DNA from: Halalkalicoccus sp. CGA53 | GTDB lineage: Archaea > Halobacteriota > Halobacteria > Halobacteriales > Halalkalicoccaceae | NCBI RefSeq assembly: GCF_036429475.1 | Contig: NZ_CP144125.1 | Span: 124,001 to 188,000 of the forward strand | Direction: 5' to 3' | Length of the DNA: 64,000 nt | Shown here: piece by piece, positions 46,600 to 56,508 of the stretch | Layout: every line of letters starts with the position of its first letter | Position numbering within the stretch: position 1 is the first letter of the stretch | The notes under the pieces: generated by a model | Seen by the model: the letters and a program-made list of their open reading frames with translations, nothing else | Told to the model about the DNA's origin: nothing | Databases searched by the model: none | Made by a program: the position numbers and the translations under genes

Positions 46600-47154
46600 T
46601 CAGCCCAGCAGGTACCGGAGCCACGGCCGCGACCGGACCGCCTCGCTCTCCTCGAGTTTCGCGTCGATGCCCAGGATCCGTCCCGCCCCGAACGCGCCCA
46701 CCCCGAAGAGGATGATCGCGTAGACGAGGTGGTAGGTGACGACGTAGCCGTTGTCGACCGGGAGACCGGACAGCACACCCGCGTGGAACTGTGTCATCCA
46801 GTAGAGCAGCATCATCAGCGCGCCGCCGAACGCGGCCAGCCTGACGAACGTCCCGGTCAACAGCGCCAGGCCGATCAGGATCTGTCCCCAGACGTTCAGC
46901 GGGTCGATCAGCCAGAGCCAGCCGTCGGCCATCGCCGCGAACATCCCACCGAACGGGTTGCCCTCGGGGACGGCGTTCGTGAGGAAGCCGGCCGCTGTCC
47001 ACTGTGGGTCGAGTAGCTTCTGTATCCCCGCCGAGAGGAACACGTAGGCCATCACCAGCCGCAGCGAGAGCAGCGAGTAGCCGACCCACGGCTCCGAGTA
47101 CTCGAACGCGACGTTCCGACCGAACACCTCGGTTCGCATCGTTTGTGTTGACAT
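46600..47154 (-). CDS. DoxX-family membrane protein
   Basis: 184 residues with four TM helices. Family marks are the first helix SLRLVMAYVFLSAGIQKLLDP (~28-48), the loop WLIDPLNVWGQILIGLALLTG, and a final TM (YHLVYAIILFGVGAFGAG). DoxX proteins are thought to be quinone-linked or part of thiosulfate/oxidative-stress membrane complexes. The partner here is unknown. ATG 47154 opens with MSTQTMRTEVFGRN. Confidence 0.9.
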   Translation of the reverse strand: MSTQTMRTEVFGRNVAFEYSEPWVGYSLLSLRLVMAYVFLSAGIQKLLDPQWTAAGFLTNAVPEGNPFGGMFAAMADGWLWLIDPLNVWGQILIGLALLTGTFVRLAAFGGALMMLLYWMTQFHAGVLSGLPVDNGYVVTYHLVYAIILFGVGAFGAGRILGIDAKLEESEAVRSRPWLRYLLG

Positions 47155-47554: not shown

Positions 47555-48733
47555 TCACCCGTTTCGGCTCGACCCTCCGGCGGTGACCGCCGCCGGCTCC
47601 GGGCGCCGGTGGGAACTCGCCGTCGCCGCGTCCTCCCCGACGACGTGTTCGACCGCGGCCTCGATCCCGGACGGTCGGAGCTCCTGGTGGACCGGGAACG
47701 TGTAGAGGCGTGCGGCGAGGTGGTTCGTGACGACGAACCGGTCGTTGCCCCGTACCCCGTCAGGCAACGGTGGCCACGGCCGCCCGAGCGCGGCGACCGG
47801 CTCCGCGAGATCGGTCAGCACCGTCGGATAGTACTGCGGGCAGGTCTCGACCCCGAGCGAGGGATAGACCTGGGCGAGCCCCGGCCGCTCAGCGAACAGG
47901 AGCTCCCAGACCGCGTAGTTCTCCCGGCGACGCCGTCGGATCGCGGCCGGATCGACCCGTCTCGCGACCCTCGCGGAGAGCCACGACATCTCGCCCTTCG
48001 AACGGCGGTAGAGCGCCGCCGGGTTCCGGGCGCTCGGTGTGGGTGAGGACGGGCCAGAGATCCGTCTCCGCGTGGCCGGACCGATCGACCGCCGGGCACG
48101 CGTGAGCACCGTTCTCGTGAGATACCGGAGGTCTGCAGGAGTCGGTCGGGACGCGACCGCGGATCTGGGCAGCGCTCCCCCGAGAGCCTCGTCGGCCACG
48201 TAGAGCACCGCGCCGTCGGGGATCGGGAGAGCCTTGTGGAGGCTCGTGAAGCCGAGGTGTCCGACCGTACCGACGAGACCACCCTCGCCGACGCTGAACG
48301 CGCCGTGGGCGGCGTCGTCGACGAGCACCGCGCCGTGTGCGTCACAGAGCGATCGGAGCGCCTCGCTCACCTCGATCGGTTGTGGTTGCCCGAAGTACCC
48401 GACCGAGACGACCGCGAGGGTGTCCCCGTCCACGAGCGAACGGACGTCTCCGAGGTCCGGCCGGAGGTCGGGACGCATCCGGTGAAACCGGGGAGTGAGT
48501 CCGGCCTCGCGGATCGGCTCGACGAAGCCGTCGGGGACGTACGCGGGCAGGACGACCTCGGTCCCGCCCCTCGCCGCCATCGTCAGGTCGAGCGCGTCGC
48601 GAAAGGCCCACTTCCCGGAGCGGTAGTAGGCGTACTCGGCGTCGGTGTGGCTCTCGACGAACCGGTCGAAGCCGGGACCGCGGGCGAGGAGCGATACCGG
48701 CGAGAGCGTCGGACCGCGGTGGAGGGCAGCCAT
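47555..48733 (-). CDS. DegT/DnrJ/EryC1-type PLP-dependent aminotransferase
   Basis: 392 residues. The PLP lysine lies in LGFTSLHKALPIPDGAVLYV (Lys ~181) and the conserved acidic residue in VLVDDAAHGAFS. The fold type I layout matches sugar aminotransferases (e.g. making 3- or 4-amino sugars), though the HK(A)LP context is less typical than the usual F-x-x-x-K. The C-terminal 30 residues are low-complexity. Last gene of the four-gene operon. Gap of 3 nt from the upstream gene's stop. Confidence 0.85.
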   Translation of the reverse strand: MAALHRGPTLSPVSLLARGPGFDRFVESHTDAEYAYYRSGKWAFRDALDLTMAARGGTEVVLPAYVPDGFVEPIREAGLTPRFHRMRPDLRPDLGDVRSLVDGDTLAVVSVGYFGQPQPIEVSEALRSLCDAHGAVLVDDAAHGAFSVGEGGLVGTVGHLGFTSLHKALPIPDGAVLYVADEALGGALPRSAVASRPTPADLRYLTRTVLTRARRSIGPATRRRISGPSSPTPSARNPAALYRRSKGEMSWLSARVARRVDPAAIRRRRRENYAVWELLFAERPGLAQVYPSLGVETCPQYYPTVLTDLAEPVAALGRPWPPLPDGVRGNDRFVVTNHLAARLYTFPVHQELRPSGIEAAVEHVVGEDAATASSHRRPEPAAVTAGGSSRNG

Positions 48734-48736
48734 CGC

Positions 48737-49753
48737 TCAACGCACCTTCGCGACGAGCGACCGGGCGGTGACCGCCAGGTCGGCCGTTGGAGAGCGTTTG
48801 AGCGCGCCGTGGTAGTGGACCAGATCGGGAGCGAACTTCGACTTGTACCGGCAGATCCGCTCGGTGTTCGCGCCGACGAAGTCGTAGCGGGTGAGCCCGC
48901 GTTCGCGCGCGTCGCGGATTACGTGCCAGTCGAGGAGGTCGTTGACCGGGATCTCCACGTCGGCTTTCGTCCCGCCCTGCCAGCGGTAGATCGTGTCGCC
49001 GTACTCGACGGTGACGATCCCGCCGGCCATCGATCCCTCCGCGTCGTAACAGACGTACGGCTTCACCTGGCCGTCGGGGAGATCGGTATAGAGGCGGTCG
49101 ATGTACTCGCGGGTGATCTGGTAGGGCTTTCCCTGCTCGTCGTGGCGCTCTCTGACCCGTTCGATGATCTCGCGGGCTTCGTCCAGCCCGCCGACCTCGA
49201 TCCGGTAGGCCTCCTCGTCGGTCTTCGTGACGTTCGAGCGGGCGTCGCTCGACAGCGCCATCAGCAGATCGTCCTCGCTCGGCGTGAGGTCGGTGACGTA
49301 GGTGTAGTACGGCGTCACGTCGAAGCCCGAGTCCGAAAACGGTCGCAGGTCGGGGTAGCGATCGACGGTTCGGATGTGCGTGATATCGGGGTCGAGCGTC
49401 GCGTCGATCCACTCGATGCATCCCTCGACGAACCGGCGGGTCCGCCGGTCGAGCTTTCGCTGTTTCAACCCGTCGACGTCACAGAGCGCCGCCCCGAGGT
49501 AGTAGACCTCCGTACCGGATGGCGGGGAGACGACGGTAGTAAACGGCCCCTTCGTCCCCTCGAACAGCGGGAGCACGCCGATCACCTGCTGGCCCTTGTA
49601 CGCGAGCAGTGGGTGGAGCGTCGTGTCGGTGTGATCGGCGAGCAGCTCCAGTGCCTCCAGCTGGTGGAACGGCCCGGCGTGTGACGATCGTTCGAGGTAG
49701 CCGTTCCACTCGGTGCGCTCCTCCTCGTTCGCGACGGTGAACTCGTAGCTCAC
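48737..49753 (-). CDS. FemAB/GNAT-type acyl- or aminoacyltransferase
   Basis: 338 residues. The sequence shows two GNAT folds as in Fem ligases and the PEP-CTERM/XrtA FemAB-like group: HAGPFHQLEALELLADHTD (~25-43), KGQQVIGVLPLF (~53), then AYDFVGANTERICRYKSKF-type C-terminal motif (RYDFVGANTERICRYK, ~300). It would transfer an amino-acyl or acyl group to an amine. Overlaps by 4 nt the phosphodiesterase gene upstream. Substrate unknown, presumably the product of the operon's other enzymes. Confidence 0.82.
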   Translation of the reverse strand: MSYEFTVANEEERTEWNGYLERSSHAGPFHQLEALELLADHTDTTLHPLLAYKGQQVIGVLPLFEGTKGPFTTVVSPPSGTEVYYLGAALCDVDGLKQRKLDRRTRRFVEGCIEWIDATLDPDITHIRTVDRYPDLRPFSDSGFDVTPYYTYVTDLTPSEDDLLMALSSDARSNVTKTDEEAYRIEVGGLDEAREIIERVRERHDEQGKPYQITREYIDRLYTDLPDGQVKPYVCYDAEGSMAGGIVTVEYGDTIYRWQGGTKADVEIPVNDLLDWHVIRDARERGLTRYDFVGANTERICRYKSKFAPDLVHYHGALKRSPTADLAVTARSLVAKVR

Positions 49754-51372
49754 TCGGATCCCTCCAGGTAGCCGAGGGCGGCGAGACGGCCCTCGACGAC
49801 CTCGTCGTCGGTCCCGCGCCTGTCACGCCCCTCGCCCTCGTACGTCTGGGTCCGAGTCTCCCGGACGAACGGGAGCACCTGGCCGTCCATCCGGTCGCTC
49901 CGGGGGATCGAGAGCGCCGAACAGACCGTCGGCGCGACGTCGAAGAGCTGTGCCTCTCCGACCTCCTCGGACTCGACCGCGTCGCCGCTCGCGACGAGTA
50001 GCCCCTCCATCTTGTGGTTCCACGGTTCGGCTGGCGGGCCGAACGGCTCGCCCTTGAGGTCCGCCGAGAGCATCGTCTCGAAGTTTCGAGGAACGGTCAC
50101 GACGTCGACGGCATCGTCGACGTGCGGACCGTCGAAGTAGCTCTCGCGGCGGGTCACCTCCTCGAACACCGGCTCGCCGTCGGGGGTGCGAACGTCGCTC
50201 AGCAGCTGGATCAGCTCCTCTCTCACCGACTCGTACTCCTCCTCGAGGACGACCCCGTCGGGCTCGCGGCCCGCGAGGTTGATCCTCACACCCAACTCGA
50301 TCCACGATCGGACGTACGCGGTCGAGTCGGCGAAGTCGACCCCCTCCCGCCCCGCTCGCTGTGCCTGCGCCGGGACGAGGCTCGCGGCCACGCCGTCGAG
50401 TCTCACGGCCCGGAGGAGCCTGCCGGCGCGAGCCGGCGTGACCCCCAGTTTCGCGGCCGTCGCGACGGCCGTTCCGGCGAGTCCCGGTCCGCTCTGAGTG
50501 TCGGTCTCGCCGTCTCGCAGGCTGTCGTTCAGGATCGGCAGCCAGGCGGGCATCCCGCCCTGAGTCGTCTCGACGAACCCCTCCTCCCGGAGGAACTCGT
50601 TGACGCGGAACTCGTAGCCCTCGTACGGTCCCATCCCGTGATCGCTCGCGAGGAGCACGGTCCCGACGTCGAACTCGTCGAGGATCACCCCGATCTCGCG
50701 GTCGACCGCCCGGTAGATCGCCTCGACCATCCCCTCGCCCTCCTCGGCGTAGCAGTCGTCGGGATACTCGTGGAAGACCGAGTCGGTCTGCTGGAACTGG
50801 AGGAAGCCGAAGTCGGGCTCGAACCGGTCGGCGAGATACCGGAAAGCGTCGCCGCGCTGTTCGATCAGCGAGACGTACTCGCCGGGCTGTTCGGCGTCCT
50901 CGTCGGGGTAGACGCGGTACTCGCCGATCGCCCCGCGGAGTTCGTCGAGGATCCCGTCGGGGTAACACGGCGGGTTCTCCGGGGCGGTGTAGCCGGGGAC
51001 CACGGCGCCGTCGATCTCCGTCGGCGGCGAGGTGACGGGGACGTTCACGACGACGCTCGACAGTCCTCGCCGATCCGCGAGCTCCCAGAGCGACGGCTCG
51101 TCGACGTGGGTCGCGTTGACGACGTCCCAGTCGTAGCCGTCGTAGCCGAGGAAGCCGAAGACGCCGTGTTTGCCGGGGTTCGTCCCGGTGTAGAGCGAGG
51201 GCCACGCGCTCGCGGTCCACGGCGGGATCTGCGAGGTGAGCGGGCCGGAGACGCCCGTCTCCGTCAGCTCCGCGATCGTCGGGACCGCACCCGACTCGAT
51301 CAGCGGATCGAGCACCTCCGCGCAGGCGGCGTCGATGCCGACCAGGAGGACCTCGATACGCGTGTCCGTCAC
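49750..51372 (-). CDS. Alkaline-phosphatase-superfamily phosphodiesterase
   Basis: 540 residues. The metal-binding Asp is in LLVGIDAAC (~9-17), the nucleophile Thr in LYTGTNPGKHGVFGF (~62-77), and the second metal set in LLASDHGMGPYEGYEF (~246-261). It therefore belongs to the type I phosphodiesterase/nucleotide pyrophosphatase or Ap3A-hydrolase group. No signal peptide or TM, so cytoplasmic. Overlaps both neighbours by 4 nt. It probably releases or modifies a phosphate- or phosphodiester-linked intermediate in this pathway. Confidence 0.85.
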   Translation of the reverse strand: MTDTRIEVLLVGIDAACAEVLDPLIESGAVPTIAELTETGVSGPLTSQIPPWTASAWPSLYTGTNPGKHGVFGFLGYDGYDWDVVNATHVDEPSLWELADRRGLSSVVVNVPVTSPPTEIDGAVVPGYTAPENPPCYPDGILDELRGAIGEYRVYPDEDAEQPGEYVSLIEQRGDAFRYLADRFEPDFGFLQFQQTDSVFHEYPDDCYAEEGEGMVEAIYRAVDREIGVILDEFDVGTVLLASDHGMGPYEGYEFRVNEFLREEGFVETTQGGMPAWLPILNDSLRDGETDTQSGPGLAGTAVATAAKLGVTPARAGRLLRAVRLDGVAASLVPAQAQRAGREGVDFADSTAYVRSWIELGVRINLAGREPDGVVLEEEYESVREELIQLLSDVRTPDGEPVFEEVTRRESYFDGPHVDDAVDVVTVPRNFETMLSADLKGEPFGPPAEPWNHKMEGLLVASGDAVESEEVGEAQLFDVAPTVCSALSIPRSDRMDGQVLPFVRETRTQTYEGEGRDRRGTDDEVVEGRLAALGYLEGSE

Positions 51373-53297
51373 CAGTCGTCACCCCCGTCGGTCCGGGTCG
51401 GGTGGACGATCGGGTCGTCCGTCCGGTTCGGTGCGGTGATCTCGGTCTCTATTCTCTCGGTCGCCGGCATGGATAGCACTGTCATCAGCGTGTAGAGTTC
51501 GACGAGGCGGTCGGCCCCGTTTCGGTGTTCGTCGTAGTAACGGTCGATCGTCGTCCGGTCGATCCCGGGCAGCGCGCGCGCGTTCTCCCCGTAACGCTCG
51601 ATCGCCTCCCCGAGGAAGTCGTTCGAGCGTATCAGCTCGCTGTCGTCGAGCCAGGGCCCGTTCGTCATGTACGGCTTCGGTGGCTGCTCTTCGTGGACGT
51701 GCTTTCGCCACGCGGCGACGAGGCTCCGCGCGACGTACTCCGCCGGGAACCGCCAGGTCAGCGGGACGCCGGTGTGGGGGTGTTCGATCGCCGCGAGCTC
51801 CGGATCGAGTCGTTCGACCGCCCGGTTGATCAGGTTCCTCCGGTGGCGATACTCGATCGGGATCGAGAGCGCGAGGTCGATCAGCCGGTCGTCCAGAAAA
51901 GGCGTTCGGTATCGCGTGATACGCGAGAGCCCGTGCTGGAAGAGCAGGTCGTCGTCGTTCGACAGCGGATAGAGGTTGCCGAAGTAGACCATATCCTCGA
52001 TCGAGTCGTAGCTCACCCCGTGGTTGATCACCCGTTCCCCGTCCCTGTAGACGTTCTCCTCGAGCACGGAGCGGAGGTCGGTCGGCAGGTCCGGATCGCA
52101 GTAGGCGCCTTCGACCAGCCAGTCGATGTACTCCGGGATCGTTCGGATCGGCTTCTCGATCGGAAGGGTGAGCGTGCCGATCGGTCCCATCGAGAGGGTC
52201 CGCTCGGGCAGCGGGAAGCGCTTGAACAGCGTGTCGGCGTAGAGTCCCGAGAGCAGGCCGTCGACCTCCCCCCTGATCTCGTCTTCCATCCCCGTCGTGT
52301 AGGGCTGGGTGAACCAGCCGGTGAAGTTCGAGAGGTGACGGTTGCGTTCGAGCGACCCCGTCCGGTACTCCCCGCCTCGGGGTAACGGGACGAACCGGGC
52401 ACCAGCGACGTCGGCAGCGCGTTTCGCGGCGCGTGCCTCGCGGTTCGTCCAGTCGGTCATGTGGAGGCCGACCGCCCGCTCGCCGAGCACCCCGAGGATC
52501 AGCCGGGAGTCGCTGCCTCCCGAGAGCAGGACGCCGTACTCCCCGCCGTCGTCCGTCCACTCCTCGACGACCTGCGTGAACGTCGCGGTAAACTCGTCGA
52601 CGATCCGTTCGAACGGACGGTCGACCGGTCGGTACCGCGGCCGCCAGTGGACGTCCGTACTCAGCTCGCCCGATTCGAGGTCGAACGTGGTGACCGATCC
52701 GGGGTGAAGCTCCTCGACCCCCTCGAAGGGCGTCTTCACCCCGAGCGTTCGCTTGAAGACGACGTACTCGTGGAGGTAGCCCGGGTCGAAGCCGGTCTCG
52801 ACGTCCGGGTGGACCGCGACGTCCTGGACGTTCGTCGAGAAGACGAGGTCGCCGTCGACCGTGCGCGCGTGGTAGAGCGGGACCGACCCGAGGCGATCGG
52901 TGACGAACGAGAGCCGTCCGCCCTCGGCGTCGTAGCACACGAGGAGGAACTCCCCGTTCAGCCCGCGGACACACCGTTCGCCGTGTCCCTCGAGGAGGTC
53001 GATACAGTACTCGAGCGGGTCGGTGTCCGTCGGACGCGGCGAGTGACCCGCGCTCCCGCCCACCGCCCCGTCGTCGAAGCCGTAGACGTCGCCGACGAGC
53101 CAGATGAGCGTCCCGTCGGCGAGCCTCCTCGGACTCCCGTTCGAGACCGCGACGCGGTCGTCCTCGTAGTGCAGTTCGTGTGCCGTCCCGTCGACGGCCT
53201 CCCACCCCCGTGTCGCCGGGGTCCCGTCGTTTCCCCCAACCCCGTAGAGATGTGTCACCGAGAACCACCACGCCACGGACGTCGCGGGACGGTCCAC
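51369..53297 (-). CDS. Asparagine-synthetase-like amide ligase without the glutaminase cysteine
   Basis: 642 residues. The C-terminal part has the ATP-pyrophosphatase loop GVLLSGGSDSRLILGVLG (~247-264) and further AsnB elements. The N-terminal GATase II-like half is present in degenerate form (GLNGEFLLVCYD…VTDRLGSVPLYHA, ~114-148), but the protein does not begin MC(G), so the catalytic Cys is missing. It may therefore use another amine instead of glutamine, as in beta-lactam synthetase or lasso-cyclase relatives. First gene of the four-gene operon. The true start is not certain. Confidence 0.82.
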   Translation of the reverse strand: MDRPATSVAWWFSVTHLYGVGGNDGTPATRGWEAVDGTAHELHYEDDRVAVSNGSPRRLADGTLIWLVGDVYGFDDGAVGGSAGHSPRPTDTDPLEYCIDLLEGHGERCVRGLNGEFLLVCYDAEGGRLSFVTDRLGSVPLYHARTVDGDLVFSTNVQDVAVHPDVETGFDPGYLHEYVVFKRTLGVKTPFEGVEELHPGSVTTFDLESGELSTDVHWRPRYRPVDRPFERIVDEFTATFTQVVEEWTDDGGEYGVLLSGGSDSRLILGVLGERAVGLHMTDWTNREARAAKRAADVAGARFVPLPRGGEYRTGSLERNRHLSNFTGWFTQPYTTGMEDEIRGEVDGLLSGLYADTLFKRFPLPERTLSMGPIGTLTLPIEKPIRTIPEYIDWLVEGAYCDPDLPTDLRSVLEENVYRDGERVINHGVSYDSIEDMVYFGNLYPLSNDDDLLFQHGLSRITRYRTPFLDDRLIDLALSIPIEYRHRRNLINRAVERLDPELAAIEHPHTGVPLTWRFPAEYVARSLVAAWRKHVHEEQPPKPYMTNGPWLDDSELIRSNDFLGEAIERYGENARALPGIDRTTIDRYYDEHRNGADRLVELYTLMTVLSMPATERIETEITAPNRTDDPIVHPTRTDGGDDW

Positions 53298-55569: not shown

Positions 55570-56508
55570 ATGCGCCCGATAGTAAGGAGCCGGCTCTTCG
55601 AACCGGGAGACCTGTCGATGGGCACCCCCGTAGAGGAGATCGAGACGGCCGGGAAGAGCGTCCGCCGGGGAGCGAGACGGGCACGCGACGTGGCGCTCGC
55701 GCACGCCCCGGAACGGGTCCACCGTGGTCGAATCCTCGCGAACCGACTCGCGATGTACGCCCGGAACCGGCGTACGGACCGCAGCGTCGACCGCTCGGAC
55801 CCGAAACGGTTCGACGCGATCCTCGACGAGTACTCCGCCGATACGGTCTTCGTCCACGTCGGACTGCGCGACGTGAAGAGCGCGTTCGACCGGAACCCCT
55901 ACGAGTTCCTCCTCTCCCGGCTCGACGACCGCTTCGAGAGCGTGCTCACCCAGGGTTTTACCCCCGCGTTCCGCTCGCCCGACGGGATCTACCACAAGCA
56001 GTTCTCGCTGCCTCGGTTCGGCGCGTTCGCGAGGCTGTTCTTCGAGGACTGTGACTATCGGACCGAGGACCCGACGAACTCGCTCCTCGTCAGGGGACCG
56101 TACCGGTTCGACGACTGCACACACCGCGATACCTGGTCGCGGGCCGGGGCGTTCGGCAAGCTCAACCGGGAGAACGTCCTCTACCTCGACATCGGGACCG
56201 ACTGGCTTCGCGCCTCGCAGATCCACTACATCGAGTCGATACTCGGGGTGCCGTACATGCGGACCGTCGAGTACGACGGGGTGGTCTATACGGATGAAAC
56301 GACCTACGAGCGAGTCACCCACCGTTCGCACGCCTACGACGACGAGGTTCGCTGGAACCGCCCGAAGCTGGAAGCCGGCCTGCGCGAGGCGGGCGTGCTC
56401 GACAGCTACGACCTCTCGGGACTGCGGATCCGGGCGTTCAGGGCGCGCGAGCTCCGCGAGTGGCTCGCCCCCCGGATCGAGCGCGACCCCTACTACGTCG
56501 TCACGTAG
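55570..56508 (+). CDS. AAC(3)-like N-acetyltransferase
   Basis: 312 residues. Segments match the aminoglycoside 3-N-acetyltransferase fold as I recall it: TVFVHVGLRDVKSAF (~92-106), VLTQGFTPAFRSPDGIYHK (~122-140) and the ending LYLDIGTDWLRASQIHYIES. In archaea these enzymes usually acetylate amino sugars or peptides rather than give drug resistance. Near the rhodanese and the four-gene surface-type operon. ATG 55570 is taken, but ATG 55618 is possible. Confidence 0.8.
   Translation: MRPIVRSRLFEPGDLSMGTPVEEIETAGKSVRRGARRARDVALAHAPERVHRGRILANRLAMYARNRRTDRSVDRSDPKRFDAILDEYSADTVFVHVGLRDVKSAFDRNPYEFLLSRLDDRFESVLTQGFTPAFRSPDGIYHKQFSLPRFGAFARLFFEDCDYRTEDPTNSLLVRGPYRFDDCTHRDTWSRAGAFGKLNRENVLYLDIGTDWLRASQIHYIESILGVPYMRTVEYDGVVYTDETTYERVTHRSHAYDDEVRWNRPKLEAGLREAGVLDSYDLSGLRIRAFRARELREWLAPRIERDPYYVVT

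Follow-up and report, generated by a model that had tools for sequence, protein, structure and literature searches.

A conserved four-gene cassette with an asparagine-synthetase-like ligase in Halalkalicoccus sp. CGA53 and other haloarchaea, and its possible role in sugar tailoring

The four-gene cassette and its distribution in Halobacteria

The 64,000-nucleotide stretch of the Halalkalicoccus sp. CGA53 genome analysed here (contig NZ_CP144125.1, positions 124,001 to 188,000; hereafter the window) harbours a compact cassette of four genes at 47555-53258 of the minus strand. It consists of an asparagine-synthetase-like ligase (51369..53258, 629 amino acids (aa) counted from the likely GTG start at 53258), an alkaline-phosphatase-superfamily (AP) type I phosphodiesterase-like enzyme (49750..51372, 540 aa), a FemAB/GNAT (PF13480) aminoacyl- or acyltransferase-like protein (48737..49753, 338 aa) and a DegT/DnrJ/EryC1/StrS-type sugar aminotransferase-like protein (47555..48733, 392 aa). 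The ligase and AP genes overlap by 4 nt (51369..51372), which recurs in Halalkalicoccus, Haladaptatus, Halomarina and Halogranum, the AP and FemAB genes likewise overlap by 4 nt (49750..49753), which recurs in Halalkalicoccus, and a gap of 3 nt (48734-48736) separates FemAB from DegT. This arrangement had been pointed out in an earlier note made from the sequence alone, and the open reading frames (ORFs), coordinates, coding bias and Pfam matches agree with it: the codon-position composition of all four ORFs is that of haloarchaeal coding sequence, and all four proteins match Pfam families above the gathering score.

The same four genes in the same order were found in 7/7 genomes of another genus of the family, called here the Halalkalicoccus genus and including Halalkalicoccus paucihalophilus DSM 24557; the AP frame is broken in one of these assemblies (G003). 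The ligase, AP and FemAB genes also occur together in Haladaptatus halobius, Haladaptatus salinisoli (on a plasmid), Halomarina halobia (on a plasmid), Halogranum rubrum and genome G257, and the last three cassettes carry in addition a DegT gene and, directly upstream, a Wzx-type flippase gene, identified by Pfam in G257 and by sequence resemblance in Halomarina and Halogranum. Given the orthologues in all seven genomes and in other families, the ORFs in the window are not due to chance. The cassette ligases are scattered over separate parts of their family tree, so the linkage of ligase, AP and FemAB is either old or repeatedly formed.

In a sample of 292 Halobacteria genomes, homologues of FemAB were detected in 170, of AP in 159 and of the ligase in 41. 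An AP gene lay within the 1.5-kb flank of FemAB at 27 of 30 FemAB loci, and FemAB lay beside AP at 25 of 30 AP loci, in both gene orders, where chance adjacency is estimated at about 1% (assuming some four copies of each in a genome of approximately 4 Mb). In several genera, mostly Natrialbaceae, relatives of the ligase adjoin an ATP-grasp-like protein and not the AP-FemAB pair (L137-L143, L147, L150). The neighbourhood analysis that the note had called for thus reveals a real, conserved cassette, which is unnamed as a system in the family libraries and literature searched, as the note had supposed. The literature search returned no paper joining FemAB with haloarchaea, nor one joining FemAB with asparagine synthase and exosortase.

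In the window the cassette is flanked upstream by an HTH_10 regulator, approximately 460 nt away from where the ligase probably starts, and directly downstream by a DoxX-family gene (46600-47154, minus strand), a homologue of which is also found downstream of the cassette in genome G004 (L040). The remaining neighbours identified by Pfam are unrelated to the cassette, which is therefore taken to comprise four genes. PADLOC gave no match for it, and a role in anti-phage defence was dropped on that ground. Further along, at 55570-56508 (plus strand), an aminoglycoside 3-N-acetyltransferase-like protein (PF02522, 38 bits) is encoded in this archaeal host next to a rhodanese-domain gene.

A ligase without the glutaminase nucleophile

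The reading frame of the ligase offers GTG start candidates at 53297, 53276 and 53258. The N-termini of orthologues (MVGLRGAVG...) align with V(53258)THLYGVGG of the window protein, so the true start is probably 53258 rather than 53297, from which the gene had originally been read. No MC(G) start, which the note had named as a counter-check, exists upstream in the open frame. Residue 2 of the window protein is Thr and not the nucleophilic Cys; among the 33 aligned ligases, 19 have Val here, 3 have Thr, 3 have Ser and the others carry different residues. Cys2 is missing from the window ligase and from 31 of its 32 aligned relatives; in the remaining one (L194) it arises artefactually from the start chosen, the sequence being VGLCGCFG when read from upstream. 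The structural alignment begins by placing residue 2 of the ligase model against residue 1 of AsnB, PurF and GlmS, and the Cys in the MVGICG start of some relatives consequently sits three residues beyond the nucleophile position. Judged from these alignments, the glutaminase nucleophile is gone from the entire haloarchaeal ligase family, including members outside such operons. The absence of the Cys reported earlier is thus correct, but it is a family-wide trait, and the idea of a special feature of this operon was dropped. From the same residues, the ligase is predicted to be unable to use glutamine via its own glutaminase domain. The suggestion that ammonia is probably not the amine source is not supported as it was put, free ammonia being still a possible source.

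A structure prediction, also proposed in the note, was made with AlphaFold2 (AF2) from 33 sequences and confirmed the two-domain fold (mean predicted local distance difference test score, pLDDT, 88.3). The model matched solved structures over the whole chain, with Z 23.7 for TsnB9 hydroxyamidotransferase, 22.3 for beta-lactam synthetase and 21.5 for both AsnB and carbapenam synthetase, at 14-20% identity. The protein combines a class-II amidotransferase domain with a PP-loop synthetase domain carrying SGGxDS and thereby belongs to the asparagine-synthetase fold superfamily. Against TIGR01536, the glutamine-dependent AsnB family, it scored 91.7 bits, below the cut-off of 267.1. The ATP loop SGGSDS is retained in the window ligase, as described before, and SGGxDSR is invariant in the family; use of ATP is likely. 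The AsnB segment GEGSDE has SGLYADT as its counterpart. When positions are counted from the PFLD motif, Lys443 of beta-lactam synthetase falls approximately at His493 of the ligase, and for Tyr348 a Tyr is found nearby in SGLYAD.

Beta-lactam and carbapenam synthetases are themselves without a working glutaminase, and their place among the nearest solved relatives raises a small-molecule cluster, peptide-like or aminoglycoside-like, in which the ligase would act as beta-lactam synthetase does. The pairing of related ligases with an ATP-grasp-like protein in Natrialbaceae and the plasmid location of certain cassettes point the same way. Three genera have a flippase and not an efflux pump, however, no carrier-protein or peptide-synthetase gene lies nearby, and the cassette, unlike accessory metabolite clusters, was present in all Halalkalicoccus-genus genomes examined. 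We regard such a product as improbable.

The AP, FemAB and DegT proteins

The AP protein matched PF01663 with 119 bits. Its nucleophile T53 and the metal ligands D14, D197, H201, D244, H245 and H453 are kept, and are the same in 15 active homologues. Neither a signal peptide nor a membrane segment is visible in the sequence. The AF2 model, built from a shallow alignment, had a pLDDT of 41 and was not used. In the DegT protein the pyridoxal-phosphate-binding K167 is conserved, the PF01041 score of 50.6 bits is well above the cut-off of 19.8, and the closest solved relatives are sugar aminotransferases. The FemAB protein had no match among PDB sequences and weakly resembles the exosortase-associated FemAB family TIGR03019.

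Archaeosortase A and a catalytically dead trio

Six complete Halalkalicoccus-genus genomes have the gene for archaeosortase A (artA) at a distance of 4.3-5.3 kb from the ligase; between the two lie a DUF7504 gene and a second gene, uncharacterised and coding for about 700 aa. The latter (L041:3323-5425, orthologues in L039-L044) lies on the same strand as the cassette and has no Pfam or NCBIfam match. The window cassette itself is not at artA. The window genome instead contains, at C2:87.0-91.5 kb, a paralogous trio of ligase, AP and DegT genes without FemAB, adjoining DUF7504, artA and two ArtA-dependent S-layer glycoproteins.

Within the window's genus, three species carry the trio (L005:5039-9512, the copy just described; L046:5517-9975; L203:1-4075), and its active sites have been lost in a concerted manner. 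In the AP protein T53 is replaced by Gly and D197, H201, D244, H245 and H453 are lost, in DegT K167 is replaced by Pro, and in the ligase SGGSDS has become SGGSAS; these losses are common to all three species with sequence. The ORFs are nevertheless intact, and the ratio of nonsynonymous to synonymous substitution rates (dN/dS) between two of the species was 0.31 for the ligase, 0.31 for AP and 0.42 for DegT; for comparison, the intact window ligase had 0.31 and artA 0.23. By this measure the trio is under continued purifying selection despite its dead catalytic sites, and the concerted loss of residues together with the persisting constraint suggests that the trio acts structurally or in regulation. 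That selection keeps a dead gene set next to archaeosortase A is a rare finding that can be tested directly. Resolution in the AP tree is weak and leaves two candidates for the true orthologue of the Halalkalicoccus cassette, the trio and the window copy; the common flanks (artA, DUF7504) favour the trio, and the DoxX neighbour in one genome favours the window copy.

A third ligase paralogue, with an MVGICG start, was noted in a lower-GC island of the same genome (L006:966-12106, C2 ~3.407-3.418 Mb), which also holds glycosyltransferase-like genes, a flippase-like gene and two sugar-transfer-associated ATP-grasp proteins (PF14397).

The proximity of artA opens the possibility that the module produces a sugar or lipid modified with an amino acid, whose amine would accept the C-termini of PGF-CTERM surface proteins in the ArtA reaction, comparable to the Wbp/Vim pathway and the type IX sortase. 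Besides the linkage in the six genomes and the trio beside artA, it is favoured by the occurrence of the same enzyme types at exosortase loci. The linkage, however, is seen in a single family and may be one historical event: no artA was present in the fetched flanks of the outside loci named above, and artA linkage as a Halobacteria-wide feature was dropped. ArtA was detected in 292/292 genomes, versus 170 for FemAB and 41 for the ligase, and the window copy of the cassette does not lie at artA. For Haloferax the presumed acceptor is archaetidylethanolamine (PMC7157517); the window genome encodes PssD, as does its family. By hand count, FemAB occurred in 13/34 genomes lacking PssD and in 157/258 genomes having it; being commoner with PssD, it shows the opposite of the pattern expected from a substitute, and the cassette as a substitute for archaetidylethanolamine was dropped. 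An ArtA acceptor accordingly has little probability as the product. Slightly less probable again is a combined version, in which the cassette makes the ArtA anchor moiety in Halalkalicoccaceae and the artA-side copy in the window's genus is a dead scaffold or regulator set for anchoring.

Sugar-gene context and proposed function

In two genomes, G047 and G041 (L153, L156), the AP-FemAB pair adjoins a Wbp-like gene set for a diamino-uronic sugar, composed of a nucleotide-sugar dehydrogenase (TIGR03026, 358 and 332 bits, above cut-off), an oxidoreductase resembling UDP-N-acetylglucosamine 3-dehydrogenase, a WbpE-type aminotransferase and a hexapeptide acetyltransferase. In bacteria such a set produces di-N-acetylated uronic sugars. 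The window genome has homologues of all four enzymes, dispersed at distances of 0.7 to 2.4 Mb from the cassette, as are one additional AP gene and one additional AP-FemAB pair. In Porphyromonas, the GNAT protein VimA, which matches TIGR03019, determines which amino acid joins a Wbp-type sugar, and the asparagine-synthetase-like WbpS (TIGR03108) forms the uronamide of that sugar; both gene types also occur at exosortase loci (PMC7468200).

We consider it about an even chance that the cassette serves to tailor an amino sugar, probably uronic, of a haloarchaeal surface glycan or its lipid-linked precursor. This reading, a tailoring module, draws on the Wbp-like neighbours of AP-FemAB and on the presence of the same enzyme types as in the Wbp/Vim pathway, with AP added; the conserved operon order, the flippase neighbours, the pairing of AP with FemAB, the relation of DegT to sugar aminotransferases and the kept catalytic residues agree with it. 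The amino-modified sugar, lipid or peptide-like product envisaged in the note thereby gains support for its sugar part, through the flippase and the Wbp-type neighbours in other genera.

Gene content, gene order, conservation, retained active-site residues and the fold of the ligase were established directly, and from the families and their context we infer substrates, order of steps and product as follows. DegT would place an amine on a keto-sugar nucleotide, and the FemAB/GNAT protein would transfer an acyl group or, as has been proposed for VimA, an amino acid to an amine. The ligase would activate a carboxylate with ATP and couple it to an amine not derived from glutamine via its own dead glutaminase domain; free ammonia, an amino sugar and an amino acid are candidate donors of this amine. 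The AP-type enzyme, presumably cytosolic, would cleave or transfer a phosphodiester on an intermediate, and the lipid-linked product would be exported by a Wzx-type flippase, which is encoded in the cassette in three genera and elsewhere in the window genome.

Several observations weigh against the tailoring module. By Pfam, neither a glycosyltransferase nor a sugar-nucleotide gene lies inside or adjoining the window cassette, and the role assigned to AP is a guess. The ligase scored 72.1 bits against TIGR03108 (cut-off 816.9) and the FemAB protein 47.3 against TIGR03019 (cut-off 260.4). Lys449 of AsnB is important in known synthetases; in a hand alignment, counting from the common PFLD motif, its position is His493 in the window ligase and His in 32/33 members, so the chemistry of the ligase may differ from that of known synthetases.

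The flippase may also be read differently. The module might alter a membrane lipid headgroup and so give a glycolipid with an amino-acyl, amino-sugar or phospho modification; the flippase of some cassettes would then move this lipid outward, and a glycosyltransferase would be unneeded. In favour of this, some cassettes have a flippase but no adjoining glycosyltransferase, and the AP superfamily includes phosphoethanolamine and phosphoglycerol transferases. The AP protein, however, is without a visible membrane segment or signal peptide, and AP-FemAB elsewhere accompanies sugar genes of the Wbp type. A lipid headgroup is in our judgement an unlikely target, though less so than a small molecule or an ArtA acceptor.

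With its start corrected, the earlier observation is confirmed and its interpretation partly supported, the function being deduced from families and context. If the sugar-tailoring reading is right, the cassette supplies concrete genes for asking how the surface glycans of haloarchaea are modified with amines or carboxylates, and if archaeosortase makes use of any such modification.

Comparison with known systems

The note had considered whether a known S-layer glycan pathway might fully explain all four enzymes. The enzyme types do match the logic of the Wbp/Vim and exosortase systems, but the curated cut-offs are not reached. The Wbp/Vim linking-sugar pathway of Porphyromonas and Tannerella, which serves the type IX secretion sortase, shares with the cassette a GNAT/FemAB-like enzyme, an asparagine-synthetase-like enzyme and a DegT-type aminotransferase, and a full Wbp-like set stands beside AP-FemAB in two haloarchaea. 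The haloarchaeal cassette differs in having an AP-type enzyme instead of a VimE-type deacetylase, in a DegT of another subfamily than WbpE, in a ligase without the glutaminase Cys and in the absence of a PorU-type sortase. Since the scores fall below the family cut-offs and the Wbp A/B/D/E genes lie outside the window cassette, the haloarchaeal set is not classed as a member of Wbp/Vim.

The XrtA/PEP-CTERM exosortase system resembles the Halalkalicoccus loci in that TIGR03108- and TIGR03019-like proteins are encoded side by side near an (archaeo)sortase gene, whereas the bacterial exopolysaccharide locus genes of that system are absent here. Beta-lactam synthetase, carbapenam synthetase and AsnB have the same two-domain fold as the ligase over the whole chain, from which it is distinguished by the low identity, the change of Lys to His and a gene context free of beta-lactam-type genes. 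COG3379-like proteins of the AP superfamily share the nucleophile, the metal ligands and PF01663 with the AP enzyme; a literature search on COG3379 was uninformative and yielded no member with an assigned function. By analogy, the haloarchaeal set would operate like the Wbp/Vim and exosortase-associated sets. If so, haloarchaea own a sugar-tailoring module of enzyme types known from bacterial sortase- and exosortase-linked pathways, whose ligase retains neither the glutaminase nucleophile nor the Lys usual in synthetases.

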